Below, piece after piece: positions 2,669 to 21,074 of a stretch of DNA of 64,000 nucleotides; positions within the stretch are counted from its first letter, which is position 1; each line of letters opens with the position of its first letter. A program made the position numbers and the translations under genes. Below the pieces are notes generated by a model. The model was not told the origin of the DNA. It ran no database searches and worked only from the letters and a program-made list of their open reading frames with translations. The stretch comes from Thioalkalivibrio sulfidiphilus HL-EbGr7 (GTDB lineage: Bacteria > Pseudomonadota > Gammaproteobacteria > Ectothiorhodospirales > Ectothiorhodospiraceae), in assembly GCF_000021985.1 (NCBI RefSeq), contig NC_011901.1, forward strand, positions 1,426,001-1,490,000. The letters run 5' to 3'.

Positions 2669-3649
2669 ATGGCCCAGAGTGATCTGTTATCCCAGGAAGA
2701 GATCGATGCCCTGCTGCACGGCGTAGACAGCGGGGACGTGGAGACCGAGTCCGAACTCCAGGCCCACGACGGCGTGGCCCGGGGCTACGACTTCACCAGC
2801 CAGGACCGCATCGTGCGCGGTCGCATGCCCACCCTGGAGATGATCAACGAGCGCTTCGCGCGCCAGATGCGCATCAGCCTGTTCAACCTGCTGCGCCGCT
2901 CGGCGGAGATCTCCGTGGGCGGCATCAAGATGACCAAGTTCTCCGAGTACGTGCACACCCTGTTTGTGCCCACCAGTCTGAACATGGTCAAGATCAAGCC
3001 GCTGCGCGGCACCGCCCTGTTCGTGGTGGACCCGAAGCTGGTCTTCATACTGGTGGACAACTTCTTCGGCGGCGACGGTCGCTACCACGCCAAGATCGAG
3101 GGCCGCGAGTTCACCCCCACGGAACTGCGCGTGATCCGCATGACCCTGGACCAGGCCTTCACGGACCTGAAGAAGGCCTGGGCGCCGGTGATGGACCTCG
3201 ACTTCGAGTACATCAACTCCGAGGTCAATCCCCAGTTCGCCAACATCGTCAGCCCCACCGAGGTGGTGTGCGTGTCGTCCTTCCACATCGAGCTGGACGG
3301 CGGTGGCGGCGATCTGCACGTGACCATGCCCTATTCCATGATCGAGCCCATGCGCGAACTGCTGGACGCGGGCATCCAGAGCGACCGTTCCGACGTGGAC
3401 GAACGCTGGATCCGCGCCCTGCGCGACGAGGTCAAGGCGGCGGAGGTGGAGCTGTCCTCGATGCTCACCGAGACCACCCTGAGTCTTGAAGACGTCATGC
3501 GCCTGAAGCCCGGTGACATCATTCCCATCGACCTGCCCGAGCAGGTCCTGCTGCGCGCCGAGGGCATCCCGGTGCTGCGCGGCAAGTTCGGCGTCTCGGA
3601 CGGGTATAACGCAATCAAGGTGACCGAGCGCATCCGGCGCGCGGACTGA
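2669..3649 (+). CDS. fliM: Flagellar motor switch protein FliM
   Basis: At 326 residues this is a full-length FliM. The N-terminal LSQEEIDALL (residues 7-16) is the CheY-P docking peptide. A CheC-like middle domain (about 40-225) and a C-terminal SpoA domain (about 245-320) follow. FliM forms the C-ring and transmits CheY-P binding to the direction of rotation. The CheY, CheZ and CheA partners are encoded about 9 kb downstream. Confidence 0.97.
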   Translation: MAQSDLLSQEEIDALLHGVDSGDVETESELQAHDGVARGYDFTSQDRIVRGRMPTLEMINERFARQMRISLFNLLRRSAEISVGGIKMTKFSEYVHTLFVPTSLNMVKIKPLRGTALFVVDPKLVFILVDNFFGGDGRYHAKIEGREFTPTELRVIRMTLDQAFTDLKKAWAPVMDLDFEYINSEVNPQFANIVSPTEVVCVSSFHIELDGGGGDLHVTMPYSMIEPMRELLDAGIQSDRSDVDERWIRALRDEVKAAEVELSSMLTETTLSLEDVMRLKPGDIIPIDLPEQVLLRAEGIPVLRGKFGVSDGYNAIKVTERIRRAD

Positions 3650-12798: not shown

Positions 12799-13191
12799 GT
12801 GGACAAGAATATGAAGATCCTGATCGTGGACGATTTCTCCACGATGCGACGCATCATCAAGAATCTGCTGCGGGATCTCGGCTTCAACAACACCAGCGAG
12901 GCCGATGACGGTAGCACGGCCCTGCCCATGCTGCAGAACGGCAACTTCGACTTCCTGATCACCGACTGGAACATGCCCAACATGCCGGGCATCGACCTGC
13001 TCAAGGCCGTGCGCGCCGACGAAAAACTCAAGACCATGCCGGTGCTGCTGGTGACCGCCGAGGCCAAGCGCGAGCAGATCGTCGAGGCCGCCCAGGCCGG
13101 GGTCAACGGCTACATCATCAAGCCGTTCACCGCCGAAACCCTGCGCGAGAAGATCGAGAAGATCTTCGAACGCATCAACGCGGGGGGCTGA
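12799..13191 (+). CDS. cheY: Chemotaxis response regulator CheY
   Basis: This 130-residue single receiver domain starts with GTG, which follows GGAGG by about 8 bases. The acidic pocket is DD at residues 11-12, the phosphoacceptor is D56 (FLITDWNMP), and the switch residues are T86 and K108. Phospho-CheY binds the N-terminal peptide of FliM encoded at 2669. cheZ follows after 5 bases. Confidence 0.97.
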
Positions 13192-13196
13192 GCGAC

Positions 13197-13973
13197 ATGG
13201 ACACGCCGGGCTTGGAGGAGAAGGCCGCCGAGATCAAGGCCCAGCAGCTGCAGAAGGCCCGTCAGCTGGTCAGCCACATCGAGGCCGGTGACGAGGAATC
13301 TGCCGCCCGGCTGATCGAGGAACTGGGCCGCATGCACGAGAGCCTGCTGTTCCAGGAGCTGGGTAGGCTGACCCGGGATCTGCATGAGGCCCTCAATGCA
13401 TTCCGTCTGGACTCGCGTCTCTCCGAGCTGACCCAGACCGACATCCCGGACGCCAAGGAACGACTCAACTACGTGGTCAGCCTGACCGAGGATGCGGCAC
13501 ACCGCACCCTCAATGCCGTGGAAGCGAGCCTGCCCATGTCGGAGCAACTCTCCAGCCGGGCAGGCGATCTGGCCCGGCACTGGCAGCGTTTCCGTGCACG
13601 CGAGCTCTCCGCCGAGGAATTCAGGCAGCTGAGCGGGGAACTGGGCGAGTTCCTGGCCCGGGTGCACGACGATGCCGAGGCCATCCGCCGCAATCTGTCC
13701 GACGTGCTCATGGCCCAGGACTTCCAGGATCTGACCGGACAGGTGATCCGCCGTGTCATCAACCTGGTGCAGGACGTGGAGCAAAACCTGGTGGGCCTGG
13801 TGCGCATCTCCGGCGAGCGGCTCTCCACGCCGGATCAGAAAAAAATGCAGGACAAGCGCGCCGAGGATCAGAACAAGGGTATGGGTCCGGCGGTGCCGGG
13901 CACCGCCGGTGCCAGCGATGTGGTCAGCGGCCAGGACGACGTGGACGATCTGCTGTCCAGCCTGGGATTCTGA
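13197..13973 (+). CDS. cheZ: Protein phosphatase CheZ
   Basis: The 258-residue protein is mostly helical, with the long four-helix bundle hairpin typical of CheZ. The conserved catalytic stretch VLMAQDFQDLTGQVI carries the Gln that positions the attacking water for CheY-P dephosphorylation. The C-terminal tail DVDDLLSSLGF is the CheY-tethering peptide. Similar peptides recur in the CheA linker (see that entry). It starts 5 bases after cheY. Confidence 0.95.
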   Translation: MDTPGLEEKAAEIKAQQLQKARQLVSHIEAGDEESAARLIEELGRMHESLLFQELGRLTRDLHEALNAFRLDSRLSELTQTDIPDAKERLNYVVSLTEDAAHRTLNAVEASLPMSEQLSSRAGDLARHWQRFRARELSAEEFRQLSGELGEFLARVHDDAEAIRRNLSDVLMAQDFQDLTGQVIRRVINLVQDVEQNLVGLVRISGERLSTPDQKKMQDKRAEDQNKGMGPAVPGTAGASDVVSGQDDVDDLLSSLGF

Positions 13974-14009: not shown

Positions 14010-16085
14010 ATGAGTCTGGATAGCGATGACGAGATTCTGCAGGACTTTCTGGTGGAGGCCGGGGAACTGCTGGAAGGGCTCAGTGAGCAGCTGGTGGAAC
14101 TGGAGCGCAACCCCACCGACCGTGACCTGCTCAATGCGGTGTTTCGCAGCTTCCACACCATCAAGGGCGGCGCGGGATTCCTCAATCTCACCCACCTGGT
14201 GGCGGTGTGCCACCGGGCCGAAGACGTGTTCAACGTGCTGCGCCAGGGCCAGCGCCAGGTGGATGGCGCGCTCATGGACGCCGTGCTGCAGGTGCTGGAC
14301 GTGGTCAACCGCATGTTCGGCGAGATCCGCGGCGGCGTCGAGCCGGGGCCCGCGGATCCCGAGCTGCTGACGCGGCTGGAATCCATGACCGGGCCCGCGG
14401 ACGCCGCGCCTGCGCCGTCTCCCGTCGCCGAGGCGCCTCCGCCCGCCCCCGAGCCTGCCCCGCCTGTGTCTGCCAGCCCTGCCGTGCCGGCCGGCGATGG
14501 CGACATCACCGACGAGGAATTCGAGGCCCTCCTGGATGCCATGCAGTCCGGTGGCAGCGCGCCCGCGCTGGCCGCAGCACCGGCCGCTTCGCACAAGAGC
14601 GACGAGATCACTGAGGACGAATTCGAGAGCCTGCTGGACGAACTGCACGGCAAGGGCAATGCGCCTGTCGAGAGCAAGGCCTCACCCCCGGCCGCAGGCA
14701 GCTCCGCGGACCCGGATCTGATCAGCGAGGATGAATTCGAGCACCTGCTGGACGAACTGCACGGCAAGGGCAAGGCACCGGTCGTGGCGTCTGCCAAGGC
14801 CGCGCCCGCCGCTGCTGCACCACCCGCCGCGAAGCCGGCTGCTGCGCCTGCCCCTGCCGCCGCCCCCGCCGCCGCCCCCGCCGCTGCGACCCCTGCGACC
14901 CAGGCACAGCCCGCCGCAGAGACCTCGGTGCGCGTGGACACCAAGCGCCTGGACGACATCATGAACCTGGTGGGCGAACTGGTGCTGGTGCGCAACCGTC
15001 TGGCCACCCTGCGTTCCAAGATGTCCGACGAGCAGGTGGCCAAGGCGGTCAGCAACCTGGACATCGTCACCGCCGACCTGCAGGCGGCGGTGATGAAGAC
15101 GCGCATGCAGCCCATCAAGAAGGTGTTCGGGCGCTTCCCCCGGGTGGTGCGCGACCTGGCCCGCAGCCTCAACAAGGAGATCGATCTGGAGTTGCGCGGC
15201 GAGGAGACCGATCTGGACAAGAACCTGGTGGAGGCCCTGGCCGATCCGCTGGTGCACCTGGTGCGCAACGCCGTGGACCACGGCATCGAGTCCCCCGAGG
15301 AGCGGGTCGCCGCCGGCAAGTCCCGCACCGGACACGTGGTGCTGTCCGCCGAGCAGGAGGGCGACCACATCCTGCTGACCATCGCCGATGACGGCAAGGG
15401 CATGGATCCGGACGTGCTGCGCGCCAAGGCCGTGGAGAAGGGGCTCATGGACGAGGATGCGGCCCAGCGCATGACCGACCAGGATGCCTTCAACGTCATC
15501 TTCATGGCGGGCTTCTCCACCAAGGAGGCCATCTCCGACATCTCCGGTCGCGGCGTCGGCATGGATGTGGTGAAGACCCGTATCGCGCAATTGAACGGCA
15601 CCATCGAGATCGATTCCAAAAAGGGTCAGGGCAGCACCCTGCGCATCAAGGTGCCGCTCACCCTGGCCATCCTGCCCACCCTCATGGTGGTGCTGGGCAA
15701 CCAGCGTTTCGCCCTGCCGCTGGCCAATGTGAGCGAGATCTTCGACCTGGATCTGTCCCGCACCAACCACGTGGATGACCAGGAGGTGATCATGGTGCGC
15801 AACCAGGCCCTGCCGCTGTATTACCTGCGCCGCTGGCTGGCCCGCAGCGATGCGCCCAAGGTGAACCGCGAGACGCAGCACGTGGTGGTGGTGTTCGTGG
15901 GCAACCGGCGCGTGGGTTTCGTGGTGGACAGCCTGATCGGCCAGGAAGAGGTGGTGATCAAACCCCTCGGCGCCTCGCTGCACGGACTGCCGGGCTTCGC
16001 CGGTGCCACCATCACCGGCGATGGCGGCATCGCCCTGATCCTGGACGTGCCCAGCCTGCTCAAGGCCTACGCGCGGCGTTTCTGA
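14010..16085 (+). CDS. cheA: Chemotaxis histidine kinase CheA
   Basis: The 691-residue kinase has P1 Hpt at about 1-105 with phosphorylated H49 (SFHTIKGGAGF), then a long linker in place of a recognisable P2. P3 dimerisation follows from about 308, then the ATPase (N-box VRNAVDHGIES, DDGKGMD, GRGVGMD) to about 555, and a CheW-like P5 to the end. The linker holds three near-copies of an acidic peptide (residues 166-176, 200-216, 238-254; core DEFExLLDELHGKG) followed by an Ala/Pro-rich tract at about 260-302. The repeats resemble the CheZ tail and may bind CheY, or serve array localisation with ParP/ParC. That part is inference. Confidence 0.96.
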   Translation: MSLDSDDEILQDFLVEAGELLEGLSEQLVELERNPTDRDLLNAVFRSFHTIKGGAGFLNLTHLVAVCHRAEDVFNVLRQGQRQVDGALMDAVLQVLDVVNRMFGEIRGGVEPGPADPELLTRLESMTGPADAAPAPSPVAEAPPPAPEPAPPVSASPAVPAGDGDITDEEFEALLDAMQSGGSAPALAAAPAASHKSDEITEDEFESLLDELHGKGNAPVESKASPPAAGSSADPDLISEDEFEHLLDELHGKGKAPVVASAKAAPAAAAPPAAKPAAAPAPAAAPAAAPAAATPATQAQPAAETSVRVDTKRLDDIMNLVGELVLVRNRLATLRSKMSDEQVAKAVSNLDIVTADLQAAVMKTRMQPIKKVFGRFPRVVRDLARSLNKEIDLELRGEETDLDKNLVEALADPLVHLVRNAVDHGIESPEERVAAGKSRTGHVVLSAEQEGDHILLTIADDGKGMDPDVLRAKAVEKGLMDEDAAQRMTDQDAFNVIFMAGFSTKEAISDISGRGVGMDVVKTRIAQLNGTIEIDSKKGQGSTLRIKVPLTLAILPTLMVVLGNQRFALPLANVSEIFDLDLSRTNHVDDQEVIMVRNQALPLYYLRRWLARSDAPKVNRETQHVVVVFVGNRRVGFVVDSLIGQEEVVIKPLGASLHGLPGFAGATITGDGGIALILDVPSLLKAYARRF

Positions 16086-18056: not shown

Positions 18057-18974
18057 ATGTCGAGACGCAGCAGAAAGCATCACGAGGAGCACGTCAACCA
18101 CGAGGCGTGGGCGATCCCCTATGGGGATCTGATCACCCTGTTGCTGGCCTTCTTCGTGGTGATGTACGCCATCTCCTCGGTGAACGAGGGCAAGTACCGG
18201 GTGCTGTCCGATTCCCTGGTCGCCGCATTCCGGGCGCCACCCAAGTCCACCGAGCCGATCCAGATCGGCGAGGTCGGCCGGCCCGCGCCAGAAATGGAGC
18301 AGCAGCAGACCCGCAGCCTCGCGCCACTTGATCTGGGTGCGGCACCCGCGCAGCCGGGCGTCATTGACCGGGGCATGGATGACCTGCTGCGCGATGCGGA
18401 ACTGGACGCCGACGAACTGCAGGCCGCTGCCGAGGGCATGAGCCGGCTGGCGGACGAGATCGAGCGGGCGATGCTGCCGCTCATGGACGCGGACCTGATC
18501 CGCATGCGCCGGGACCGTTTCTGGATCGAGGTGGAGATCAACACCAGCCTGCTGTTTGCCAGCGGCAGTGCCCAGCTGTCCAGCGAGGCCGTGCCGGTGC
18601 TGCAGCGTCTGGCCACCATCCTGCGGGATTTCCCGGCGCGCATCCAGGTGGAGGGCTTCACGGACACGGTGCCCATCAACACCCCCATCTTCCCGTCCAA
18701 CTGGGAACTCTCCGCCGCCCGGGCCGCCAGCGTGGTGAACCTGTTCAGCCGCAATCAGCTGGACCCGACGCGCATGGCCGCCATCGGTTACGGGGAGTAT
18801 CGCCCCATCGCGGACAACGACACCGCCGAGGGACGTCGCCAGAACCGGCGCGTGAGTATCGTGGTGCTGGCCGAACGCCGGCCACGCTCGGAGCGGGCGG
18901 TCGAGGCCGACGACCTGCGCGATGATCTCAACGAGATGGTCGATCCCCAGGACCGCAACGGAGGCACACGCTGA
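18057..18974 (+). CDS. motD: Flagellar motor stator protein, MotB/PomB family (MotD)
   Basis: The 305-residue protein has a basic N-terminus, one membrane helix with the ion-binding Asp (PYGDLITLLLAFFVVMYA, D23), a periplasmic linker, and a C-terminal OmpA-like peptidoglycan-binding domain (VEGFTDTVPINTPIFPSNWE through RRVSIVVL). It anchors the MotCD stator to the cell wall. Its stop overlaps the parC start by one base (TGATG). Confidence 0.93.
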   Translation: MSRRSRKHHEEHVNHEAWAIPYGDLITLLLAFFVVMYAISSVNEGKYRVLSDSLVAAFRAPPKSTEPIQIGEVGRPAPEMEQQQTRSLAPLDLGAAPAQPGVIDRGMDDLLRDAELDADELQAAAEGMSRLADEIERAMLPLMDADLIRMRRDRFWIEVEINTSLLFASGSAQLSSEAVPVLQRLATILRDFPARIQVEGFTDTVPINTPIFPSNWELSAARAASVVNLFSRNQLDPTRMAAIGYGEYRPIADNDTAEGRRQNRRVSIVVLAERRPRSERAVEADDLRDDLNEMVDPQDRNGGTR

Positions 18975-19762
18975 TGCGTGTCTGGGCCGTGGCCAATCAG
19001 AAAGGCGGCGTGGGCAAGACCACCACCGCGGTGAGCCTGGGTGGGCTGCTGGCCGCCCGTGGCGAGAACACCCTGCTGGTGGACCTGGATCCCCACGGAT
19101 CGCTGACCGCCTATTTCGGCATGGACCCGGAGAGCGGTACCGCTGGTGTCTATGACCTGTTCCGCCAGACCACGGCCGGCAGCGTGCATCCCGAGACCCT
19201 GGTGCATGAGACCCGTTTCCCCCATCTGCACGTGATGCCCGCATCCACCGCCATGGCCACCCTGGACCGGCAGCTGGGTGGTCGCGAAGGCATGGGCCTG
19301 GTGCTGCATCGCGCCCTGACCGCGATGTCGGACCGGTTTGACACCGTGATCCTGGATTGCCCGCCCATGTTGGGCGTGCTCATGGTCAATGCCCTGGCTG
19401 CCTGCAACCGCCTGCTGATCCCCGTGCAGACCGAGACCCTGGCACTCAAGGGCCTGGAACGCATGTTGCACACCCTGGACATGATCCAGCGTTCCCGGCG
19501 CATGAAGATGGATTACCTGGTGGTACCCACCATGTTCGATCGTCGTACCCGGGCCTCGGTGCAAAGCCTGCGTAAACTTCGCGCCGAACATGCCGATACC
19601 CTCTGGGAGGGCATGGTGCCCGTGGACACCCTGTTCCGCGAGGCCAGCACGGCGGGCATCCCTTTGCCGCTGATGCAGCCCGATGCGCGGGGCGTGGAGG
19701 CCTACGACTGGCTGCTGCGTCGCCTGGAACGAGATGAAAAACAGCACAGGGCGGCCTCATGA
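18974..19762 (+). CDS. parC: ParA-like ATPase of the chemotaxis array (ParC)
   Basis: The 262-residue ParA/Soj-type ATPase has QKGGVGKTTT (Walker A), DLDPHGSLT (A') and ILDCPPMLG (Walker B). Genes of this type next to cheW-like genes in polar flagellates encode ParC, which positions chemotaxis arrays at the cell pole and segregates them. Context (between motD and the CheW-domain gene) decides between this and a plasmid or chromosome ParA: no parB is adjacent. It overlaps the next gene by 4 bases. Confidence 0.8.
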   Translation: MRVWAVANQKGGVGKTTTAVSLGGLLAARGENTLLVDLDPHGSLTAYFGMDPESGTAGVYDLFRQTTAGSVHPETLVHETRFPHLHVMPASTAMATLDRQLGGREGMGLVLHRALTAMSDRFDTVILDCPPMLGVLMVNALAACNRLLIPVQTETLALKGLERMLHTLDMIQRSRRMKMDYLVVPTMFDRRTRASVQSLRKLRAEHADTLWEGMVPVDTLFREASTAGIPLPLMQPDARGVEAYDWLLRRLERDEKQHRAAS

Positions 19763-20502
19763 ACCCACAACGGGACCCGGTACTCCTGGACGAGCGCGAG
19801 GCGCTGATCCGCTACCTGGACAGCCTGCTTCAGGAGATCCCTGAAGCGCCCCAGGAAGCAGAGCCGCAGACGCGCACCGAAATGCCTGTGTCTCAGCCGG
19901 CTGCCGTCGCGCCTGTCAGGGAGGCGCCGCCTGTGGCAGAGGTCAGGACCGAGGTGCCTGCCCCCGTGCAGGCACCCGTCGTCGAACCTGCGCCGGCACA
20001 GGTCCCGTCGCCCGAGGCAGGCCCGCCGGAATGGGGTCGTGAACGGTTCCAGTGTCTGGGTTTGCGGCTTGCCGGCCTGACGCTGGCGGTGCCGCTGGTG
20101 AAGCTCAATGGCATCATCGAAATGCCGGAAGAGATCACGCCCATGCCCGGCCATCAGCCCTGGTTCCTGGGCCTGGTGAAGCACCTGGATCGGCAGGTCA
20201 AGGTGGTGGATATCGCCCGCATCGTGCTGCCGGAGGGACGCGAGTACGCCCCCATCGAGGCGAGGCACGTGGTGCTCATGGACGACAGCCGATGGGGTAT
20301 CGCCTGCGAGGGCATCACCGAGGTGATGACCCTGGAACCGGACGCGGTGCGCTGGCGAAGCAGTCGTGGCAAGCGTCCCTGGCTGGCCGGAACGGTCATC
20401 GAACAGATGTGTGCCATACTGGACGTGGACATTCTGGCCAGGGATCTCGCCACCGGTCAGTGGAGTGTATCCGCCGCACCCGCCCAGGCACGCAGGCGCT
20501 GA
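19759..20502 (+). CDS. parP: CheW-domain protein with long N-terminal linker, ParP-like
   Basis: The 247-residue protein has a short helical N-terminus (DEREALIRYLDSLLQEIPEA), a Pro/Ala/Val-rich linker at about 35-95, and a CheW-like domain from about 95 to 235. In Vibrio the analogous gene between parC and cheW encodes ParP, which joins CheA and receptors in the array and stops ParC from releasing CheA. The call rests on domain order and the 4-base overlap with parC. Sequence similarity to Vibrio ParP was not computed. Confidence 0.7.
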   Translation: MNPQRDPVLLDEREALIRYLDSLLQEIPEAPQEAEPQTRTEMPVSQPAAVAPVREAPPVAEVRTEVPAPVQAPVVEPAPAQVPSPEAGPPEWGRERFQCLGLRLAGLTLAVPLVKLNGIIEMPEEITPMPGHQPWFLGLVKHLDRQVKVVDIARIVLPEGREYAPIEARHVVLMDDSRWGIACEGITEVMTLEPDAVRWRSSRGKRPWLAGTVIEQMCAILDVDILARDLATGQWSVSAAPAQARRR

Positions 20503-20594: not shown

Positions 20595-21074
20595 ATGAAA
20601 CAGGAAGCCAAGGCCAGCGCCCGGGGACCGACCGCCCAGTACGTGACCTTCCGCCTCGCGGAAGAGACCTACGCCATCAACGTGATGCAGGTGCAGGAAG
20701 TGCTGCGGGTCAGCGAGATCGCGCCGGTGCCAGGTGCTCCCCATTACGTGCTGGGCATCGTCAACCTGCGTGGCAACGTGGTGACCGTCATCGACGCCCG
20801 TCGCCGCCTGGGCCTGGAGCCCCGGGAGCCCGATGACGCTTCCCGGGTGGTGATCATCGAGGTGAGCAACCAGGTGGTGGGCATCCTGGTGGACAGTGTG
20901 GCCGAGGTCATCGAACTGGGTACTGCAGAGATCGAGCCCGCGCCCAATGTCGGCAATGATGAGAGTTCCAAGTACATCCAGGGCGTGGCCAGCCGCGACG
21001 GCGAGCTGACCATCGTGGTGGATCTCAACAAGCTGCTCTCGGAAGAAGAGTGGGCGGAGATGGCCAGTCTGTAA
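20595..21074 (+). CDS. cheW: Chemotaxis coupling protein CheW
   Basis: A 159-residue stand-alone CheW domain: YVTFRLAEETYAINVMQVQE, APHYVLGIVNLRGNVVTVID, and a C-terminal GELTIVVDLNKLL. It couples chemoreceptors to CheA. The frame is open about 540 bases upstream through parP in another phase, but the ATG at 20595 gives the normal CheW N-terminus and lies just past the intergenic gap. Confidence 0.95.
   Translation: MKQEAKASARGPTAQYVTFRLAEETYAINVMQVQEVLRVSEIAPVPGAPHYVLGIVNLRGNVVTVIDARRRLGLEPREPDDASRVVIIEVSNQVVGILVDSVAEVIELGTAEIEPAPNVGNDESSKYIQGVASRDGELTIVVDLNKLLSEEEWAEMASL

Follow-up and report, generated by a model that had tools for sequence, protein, structure and literature searches.

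The CheA of the window (the whole 64,000-nucleotide stretch of Thioalkalivibrio sulfidiphilus HL-EbGr7 DNA that was analysed) has no recognisable P2 domain, and carries in its place, within a linker predicted to be disordered, three copies of a short peptide that resembles the N-terminus of FliM. On balance, these copies are likely to form a multivalent, FliM-like docking array for CheY that takes the place of P2 and overlaps with the segment of the kinase to which ParP binds (LID), CheY binding being proposed here from the likeness of the peptides. The gene, cheA (14010..16085, + strand), encodes 691 aa that, from the ORF, its translation and Pfam, are arranged as Hpt (P1), the linker with three motifs, P3, P4 and P5. 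Pfam places Hpt at residues 8-97, H-kinase_dim at 305-364, HATPase_c at 412-551 and CheW at 558-686, and gives no match to P2 (PF07194) or the CheY-binding family (PF09078) up to an E value of 0.1. In an AlphaFold2 prediction (48 sequences), pLDDT is below 50 across nearly all of residues 134-309, with the exception of three helices (168-179, 202-212 and 240-250) that correspond to motif copies 1, 2 and 3. This agrees with an earlier note on this DNA, which had claimed that the P2 region is absent and that motif peptides stand in its place. A fold search with the protein returned CheA and other kinase structures, and nothing bearing on the linker.

Given as 24-residue windows on the + strand, copy 1 (GDGDITDEEFEALLDAMQSGGSAP) spans residues 162-185 (14493..14564, FliM-like core 14502-14534), copy 2 (KSDEITEDEFESLLDELHGKGNAP) residues 196-219 (14595..14666, core 14604-14636) and copy 3 (DPDLISEDEFEHLLDELHGKGKAP) residues 234-257 (14709..14780, core 14718-14750). 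All three peptides that the note had described in the linker can thus be read from the DNA. Their consensus is D-x-I-[ST]-[DE]-[DE]-E-F-E-x-L-L-D-x-[LM], and DNA identity to the middle copy is 65% and 88% for the other two. The tail ELHGKG, which had been ascribed to the copies in general, is complete in copies 2 and 3 only; copy 1 has AMQSGG and so is not of the LHGxG type. Under a position matrix, for which shuffled linkers put the 99% threshold at -1.0 bits, the three copies score 48.6, 64.5 and 59.1 bits, and none of the other window ORFs of at least 60 aa exceeds the threshold. Because of these scores, the failure of every other window ORF and the conservation in the family (below), the three-copy repeat is confirmed as real and more than chance.

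To follow the motif across genomes, the window CheA was searched against 184 gammaproteobacterial genomes, and 80 of the CheA places found were taken with their flanks; further CheA loci came from 80 named loci (a set rich in Marinobacter), three plasmid records, 30 order-search loci and 20 regions from the order search. In all, 216 CheA reading frames were scanned with the position matrix. A frame was called F6-type, a class name from the literature, when its score against a P3-P5 profile for the window CheA's family exceeded 480 bits. The motif is present in 194 of 197 F6-type CheAs with one to four copies each; three, two, four, one and no copies are found in 138, 28, 19, 9 and 3 of them, although the sequences are related and these counts are not independent events. 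The three without it (L080, L088 and L247) have cut or masked linkers of 60, 45 and 5 aa. Among the non-F6 CheA frames, 16 of 19 have no motif, and the matches are in L103, in L097, a cut CheA frame whose linker is F6-type, and in L104. The last, a very divergent CheA (L104 3504-5516, 36% identity), keeps one motif, DEITDEEFERYLDELYGGAAPG, and its genome has ParC and ParP genes away from cheA (G134:C6:61175-61705). Within copy 3, residues F243 and L247 are invariant in 63 aligned CheAs, in company with residues of the kinase core. The earlier note had held that its proposal would fail if the peptides were not conserved in orthologues; they are highly conserved.

The motif is confined to CheA. 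An HMM from 20 motif windows matches 41 of 115 whole gammaproteobacterial genomes at E<=1e-3, only in CheA frames, and four further genomes give only weaker matches. One match on another contig (G067) turned out to be an N-terminal piece of CheA, and in the window genome the three CheA copies are the only matches. All 63 F6-type CheAs examined with Pfam have the four core domains, and none has a P2 or CheY-binding family among the 25 of 32 families listed (by member number), while three of ten non-F6 CheAs (L106, L236 and L237) match the CheY-binding PF09078. By these Pfam results, and by the disorder predicted outside the motif helices of the window CheA, the motif linker does not belong with the P2 or CheY-binding domains. 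In L329-L338 (nine loci of other classes and one of the same class), L310 and L311, sampled for the situation outside Gammaproteobacteria, there is neither a motif nor an F6-level CheA. A small plasmid of Photobacterium toruni (NZ_CP101697.1; L116 7839-12411) has, besides cheY-cheZ-cheA-cheW, a fifth chemotaxis gene and neither ParC nor ParP; one clear motif copy is retained in the linker of its CheA.

Judged by matrix scores, the N-terminus of FliM is a closer relative of the CheA motif than the tail of CheZ is. The fliM of the window (2669..3649, + strand; an ORF with a match to the FliM domain family) encodes a protein that starts MAQSDLLSQEEIDALLHG, and its N-terminal peptide DLLSQEEIDALLHG (2681..2722, + strand), of a known CheY-binding kind, is the one that the CheA motif resembles; copy 3 (DLISEDEFEHLL) and FliM (DLLSQEEIDALL) match colinearly over 11-12 residues. 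Under an 11-residue matrix made from CheA motifs alone, the FliM N-termini of 40 genomes have a median of 13.1 bits, reached by none of 2191 background ORFs (CheA and recognisable FliM removed), and a minimum of 8.8 bits (the E. coli-like ILSQAEIDALL), reached by seven. In a second comparison with an 11-residue matrix, the FliM median is reached by none of 2026 background ORFs and the CheZ median by 16%; the median of CheZ tails under the CheA-motif matrix is -3.5 bits. The CheA motif therefore fits, by its matrix scores, the FliM pattern of EIDALL after a hydrophobic residue and Ser/Thr, although part of the match appears to be a general helix-start pattern. A 14-mer matrix made from near-identical FliMs was set aside as too stringent: 43% of 555 CheA motifs exceed the 99% level of background, and none exceeds the highest background score, that of a FliM-type peptide in L103. 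Among the best non-CheA background matches to the CheA motif is GNMN[AS]FEIEALMDE, in ORFs of 298-304 aa near cheA in L236-L238 that are, by position, probably MotA. A single-contig genome (L036, G031) has an F6-type CheA with three motif copies, CheY, CheZ, ParC and ParP, and gives no FliM match in a whole-genome search or in a 16 kb stretch upstream.

The earlier note had instead likened the peptides to the tail of CheZ, through a shared acidic-then-LL pattern. In the window, cheZ (13197..13973, + strand; Pfam CheZ, 1.4e-75) ends in VDDLLSSLGF (13941..13970, + strand, read from the DNA). The likeness holds over the 8-residue core D-D-E-F-E-A-L-L, where the CheZ median is reached by 0.30% of background C-terminal 25-mers, but the longer likeness is to FliM. 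The whole tail, DDLLSSLGF at a C-terminus, is not seen in the CheA motif, which lies inside the protein and continues with D-x-L-H-G where CheZ has SSLGF. The CheZ tail is thus rejected as the main template, being common to the motif in the core only. Of the two roles that the earlier note had proposed, both of which survive in altered form, the tethering of CheY is favoured, with FliM as its better template.

The proposed ligand, CheY (12799..13191, + strand; Pfam Response_reg, 5.1e-31), opens a gene order of cheY, cheZ and cheA, then cheB-like and mot-like genes (by eye), parC, parP and cheW. The residues of CheY at positions 92, 94, 103 and 117 (numbered as in E. coli) are R/Q/V/K in 92 of the 115 motif-bearing loci where CheY could be read, and K/N/A/E in all three P2-type loci, which are the whole of that comparison set. 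Excerpts of PMC7184735 describe these positions as facing P2 or, for 117, as lying in the FliM-contacting helix. CheYs of motif-bearing loci thus appear to differ from P2-type CheYs on the face that binds P2 and FliM, and the basic residue at 117 would suit an acidic peptide. In Pseudomonas aeruginosa, four motif copies are present in a CheA from a plasmid record (L114), for which Pfam gives no P2, and CheY-eYFP is polar and co-localises with CheA-CFP, according to excerpts of PMC12410967. Docking is not strictly needed, since E. coli CheA without P2 is still able to phosphorylate CheY, as stated in part of PMC10782961.

Downstream of cheA, a parC-type gene for a ParA-like ATPase (18974..19762, + strand; Pfam AAA_31, 2.4e-44) adjoins parP (19759..20502, + strand; Pfam CheW, 9.5e-16), which encodes an N-terminal extension and a CheW-like (AIF) domain, and cheW (20595..21074). 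The window ParP keeps a KRPWLAG tryptophan that is aligned across the ParP family and that, by motif, is presumably the CheA-contacting W305 of V. cholerae. A solved structure of a ParP relative was not found. The LID is a CheA segment before P3 that is reported, in excerpts of PMC5706961 and PMC7534058, to bind the AIF domain of ParP and to occur only together with ParC/ParP; the binding was seen in two-hybrid work as cited in later papers. The window CheA has such a segment before P3 together with a ParC/ParP system. Conservation in six Vibrio-like linkers (L230-L235) is mainly that of the three motifs, a shorter stretch behind copy 3 being kept as well, and thus the LID and the motif array very probably coincide. 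The ParP docking that the earlier note had offered as its other possibility is therefore already partly in print.

For genomes with a doubtful ParP, a ParP profile was searched in 23 genomes, most of that kind. Twelve with a readable linker and no ParP beyond CheW-level scores form the ParP-minus set (L038, L056, L061, L070, L078, L079, L094, L095, L098, L100, L101 and L102); two of them come from genomes 91% and 95% complete (G001 and G137), where ParP may be missing from the assembly. An ambiguous genome (G147) and one with a masked linker (G154) were set aside, and G131 was counted as ParP-plus for a divergent ParP-like frame. On a quick CheA tree the state of ParP changes at least eight times. 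In L038, L056, L094 and L095, parC lies close to cheW and parP was not found in the genome, which suggests that ParC can work with another partner. In a P. aeruginosa plasmid record (NZ_CP131792.1; L114 14249-16019), a ParA-family gene and a CheW-domain gene adjoin motD; the CheW-domain product can be aligned with the ParP family, is 39% identical to the ParP of the window and keeps RPWLAG, although genes related to ParC/ParP are stated to be absent from P. aeruginosa (PMC12410967).

The motif tail D-[EQ]-L-H-G-x-G is present in 92% of last copies vs 37% of first copies. That this tail tracks ParP was suggested by L051, L070 and L094/L095, but is broken by L060 and by the counts, at least one LHGxG tail being kept in nine of 12 ParP-minus proteins vs 131 of 136 ParP-plus loci.

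In E. coli, a folded P2 holds CheY near the kinase. In F6-type CheAs, a string of short helical linker peptides would hold CheY near the phospho-histidine of P1. FliM and the CheZ tail bind CheY on its alpha4-beta5-alpha5 face, and since the peptides resemble the CheY-binding N-terminus of FliM, CheY would be expected to dock through this same face, which is used for FliM, CheZ and P2. Disordered spacers and two to four copies may allow several CheY molecules per kinase and so a high local CheY concentration, by which phosphotransfer may in turn be affected. Since the motif segment is identical to the LID or overlaps with it, the linker would probably be shared, or competed for, by CheY and the polar tether.

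A different reading, which we consider unlikely but worth weighing, equates the repeats with the LID: the AIF domain of ParP would dock on them, ParP would tie CheA into the array and to ParC as the polar anchor, and CheY would not use them. The reported binding of ParP, the conserved elements of the Vibrio-like linkers and the ParC and ParP genes downstream of cheA are consistent with this, as is the motif in 49 of the 51 ParP-bearing CheAs of the tree set, the other two having cut or masked linkers. The divergent L104 CheA keeps its one motif in a ParP-bearing genome, and L051 has lost the LHGxG tails along with the tryptophan of ParP. Copy number is also lower without ParP, mostly one or two vs two or three, although with few pairs on the tree, and this would fit a role of ParP for the extra copies. 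However, the motif is kept in all 12 genomes without detected ParP (22 copies, compared with 392 in the 136 ParP-plus loci), with three copies in L070, although a highly divergent ParP could have escaped detection. In L060, ParP is present and the LHGxG tail is lacking. With a baseplate ratio of 7.5 CheA to 1.4 ParP in V. cholerae (PMC7534058), there would moreover be far more sites than ParP if each CheA had three. Finally, docking of ParP alone leaves the resemblance to FliM unexplained.

Under another, rather improbable reading, the repeats bind CheY-P as a decoy of the motor, buffering the product at the pole so that free CheY-P is lowered and phosphotransfer is not sped; the binding may extend to other receiver domains (CheB, CheV). 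The N-terminus of FliM prefers CheY-P, and the multiple copies and the closer likeness to FliM than to the CheZ tail also agree with it, but the CheA core has F where FliM has I or V, and so affinity and phosphorylation preference may differ. Least probable, to the point of being very doubtful, are generic short helices in a low-complexity spacer, for SHOCT-like self-association or contact with CheA, with neither a receiver nor ParP as partner. Weak SHOCT matches occur in 51 of 63 CheAs, but membership of the window CheA in SHOCT (PF09851) was rejected, at 21.8 bits vs a cut-off of 27 and over positions 13-24 of 28 only. I-[ST]-x-x-E-F is a common helix start and may account for such matches. 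In addition, the F and LL are near-invariant across the class, and the motif is absent from other CheAs and from other genes of the 115 genomes, which indicates one specific partner of the CheA system. CheY docking on a FliM-like array is thus the preferred reading. A more speculative extension of it, which we hold to be doubtful, is that F6-type CheAs carry a multivalent mimic of the CheY receptor of the motor. Array and flagellar motor, both polar, would then compete for CheY-P, the array would form a local reservoir, and ParP on the same peptides would couple anchoring of the array to CheY loading.

More than half of CheA proteins have no P2, according to a survey (PMC10782961). A large group, including Pseudomonas and Vibrio relatives, may bring kinase and CheY together in the manner proposed here, and signal output and positioning of the polar array would be linked to one short linker in a large gammaproteobacterial group. 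CheY docking is directly testable, since the peptides of the array are conserved, can be counted and have a known structural template (the FliM N-terminus on CheY). No description of the repeat, or of FliM-like peptides in CheA, was found in the open-access literature.

Compared with known systems, the motif linker is the same linker as the Vibrio CheA LID and has the same association with ParC/ParP loci; however, the LID is reported only with ParC/ParP, and the motif is also found in genomes without detected ParP. With the P2 domain of E. coli and T. maritima it has in common the place between P1 and P3 and the proposed job, but P2 is folded, and in the window CheA no such folded domain is predicted. 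The CheZ tail shares the core [DE]-[DE]-hydrophobic-[DE]-x-L-L, although it lacks an I-[ST] start in register with that of the motif, has SSLGF as its C-terminal end and is a much weaker match. The N-terminus of FliM (EIDALL) is colinear with the motif as x-[ILM]-[ST]-x-[DE]-E-[FIV]-[DE]-[AST]-L-L, and fliM is in the same gene region and cell. In contrast to FliM, the CheA motif is repeated one to four times inside a disordered linker, has F in the core where FliM has I/V, and continues as D-[EQ]-L-H-G-x-G, without a clear FliM counterpart.
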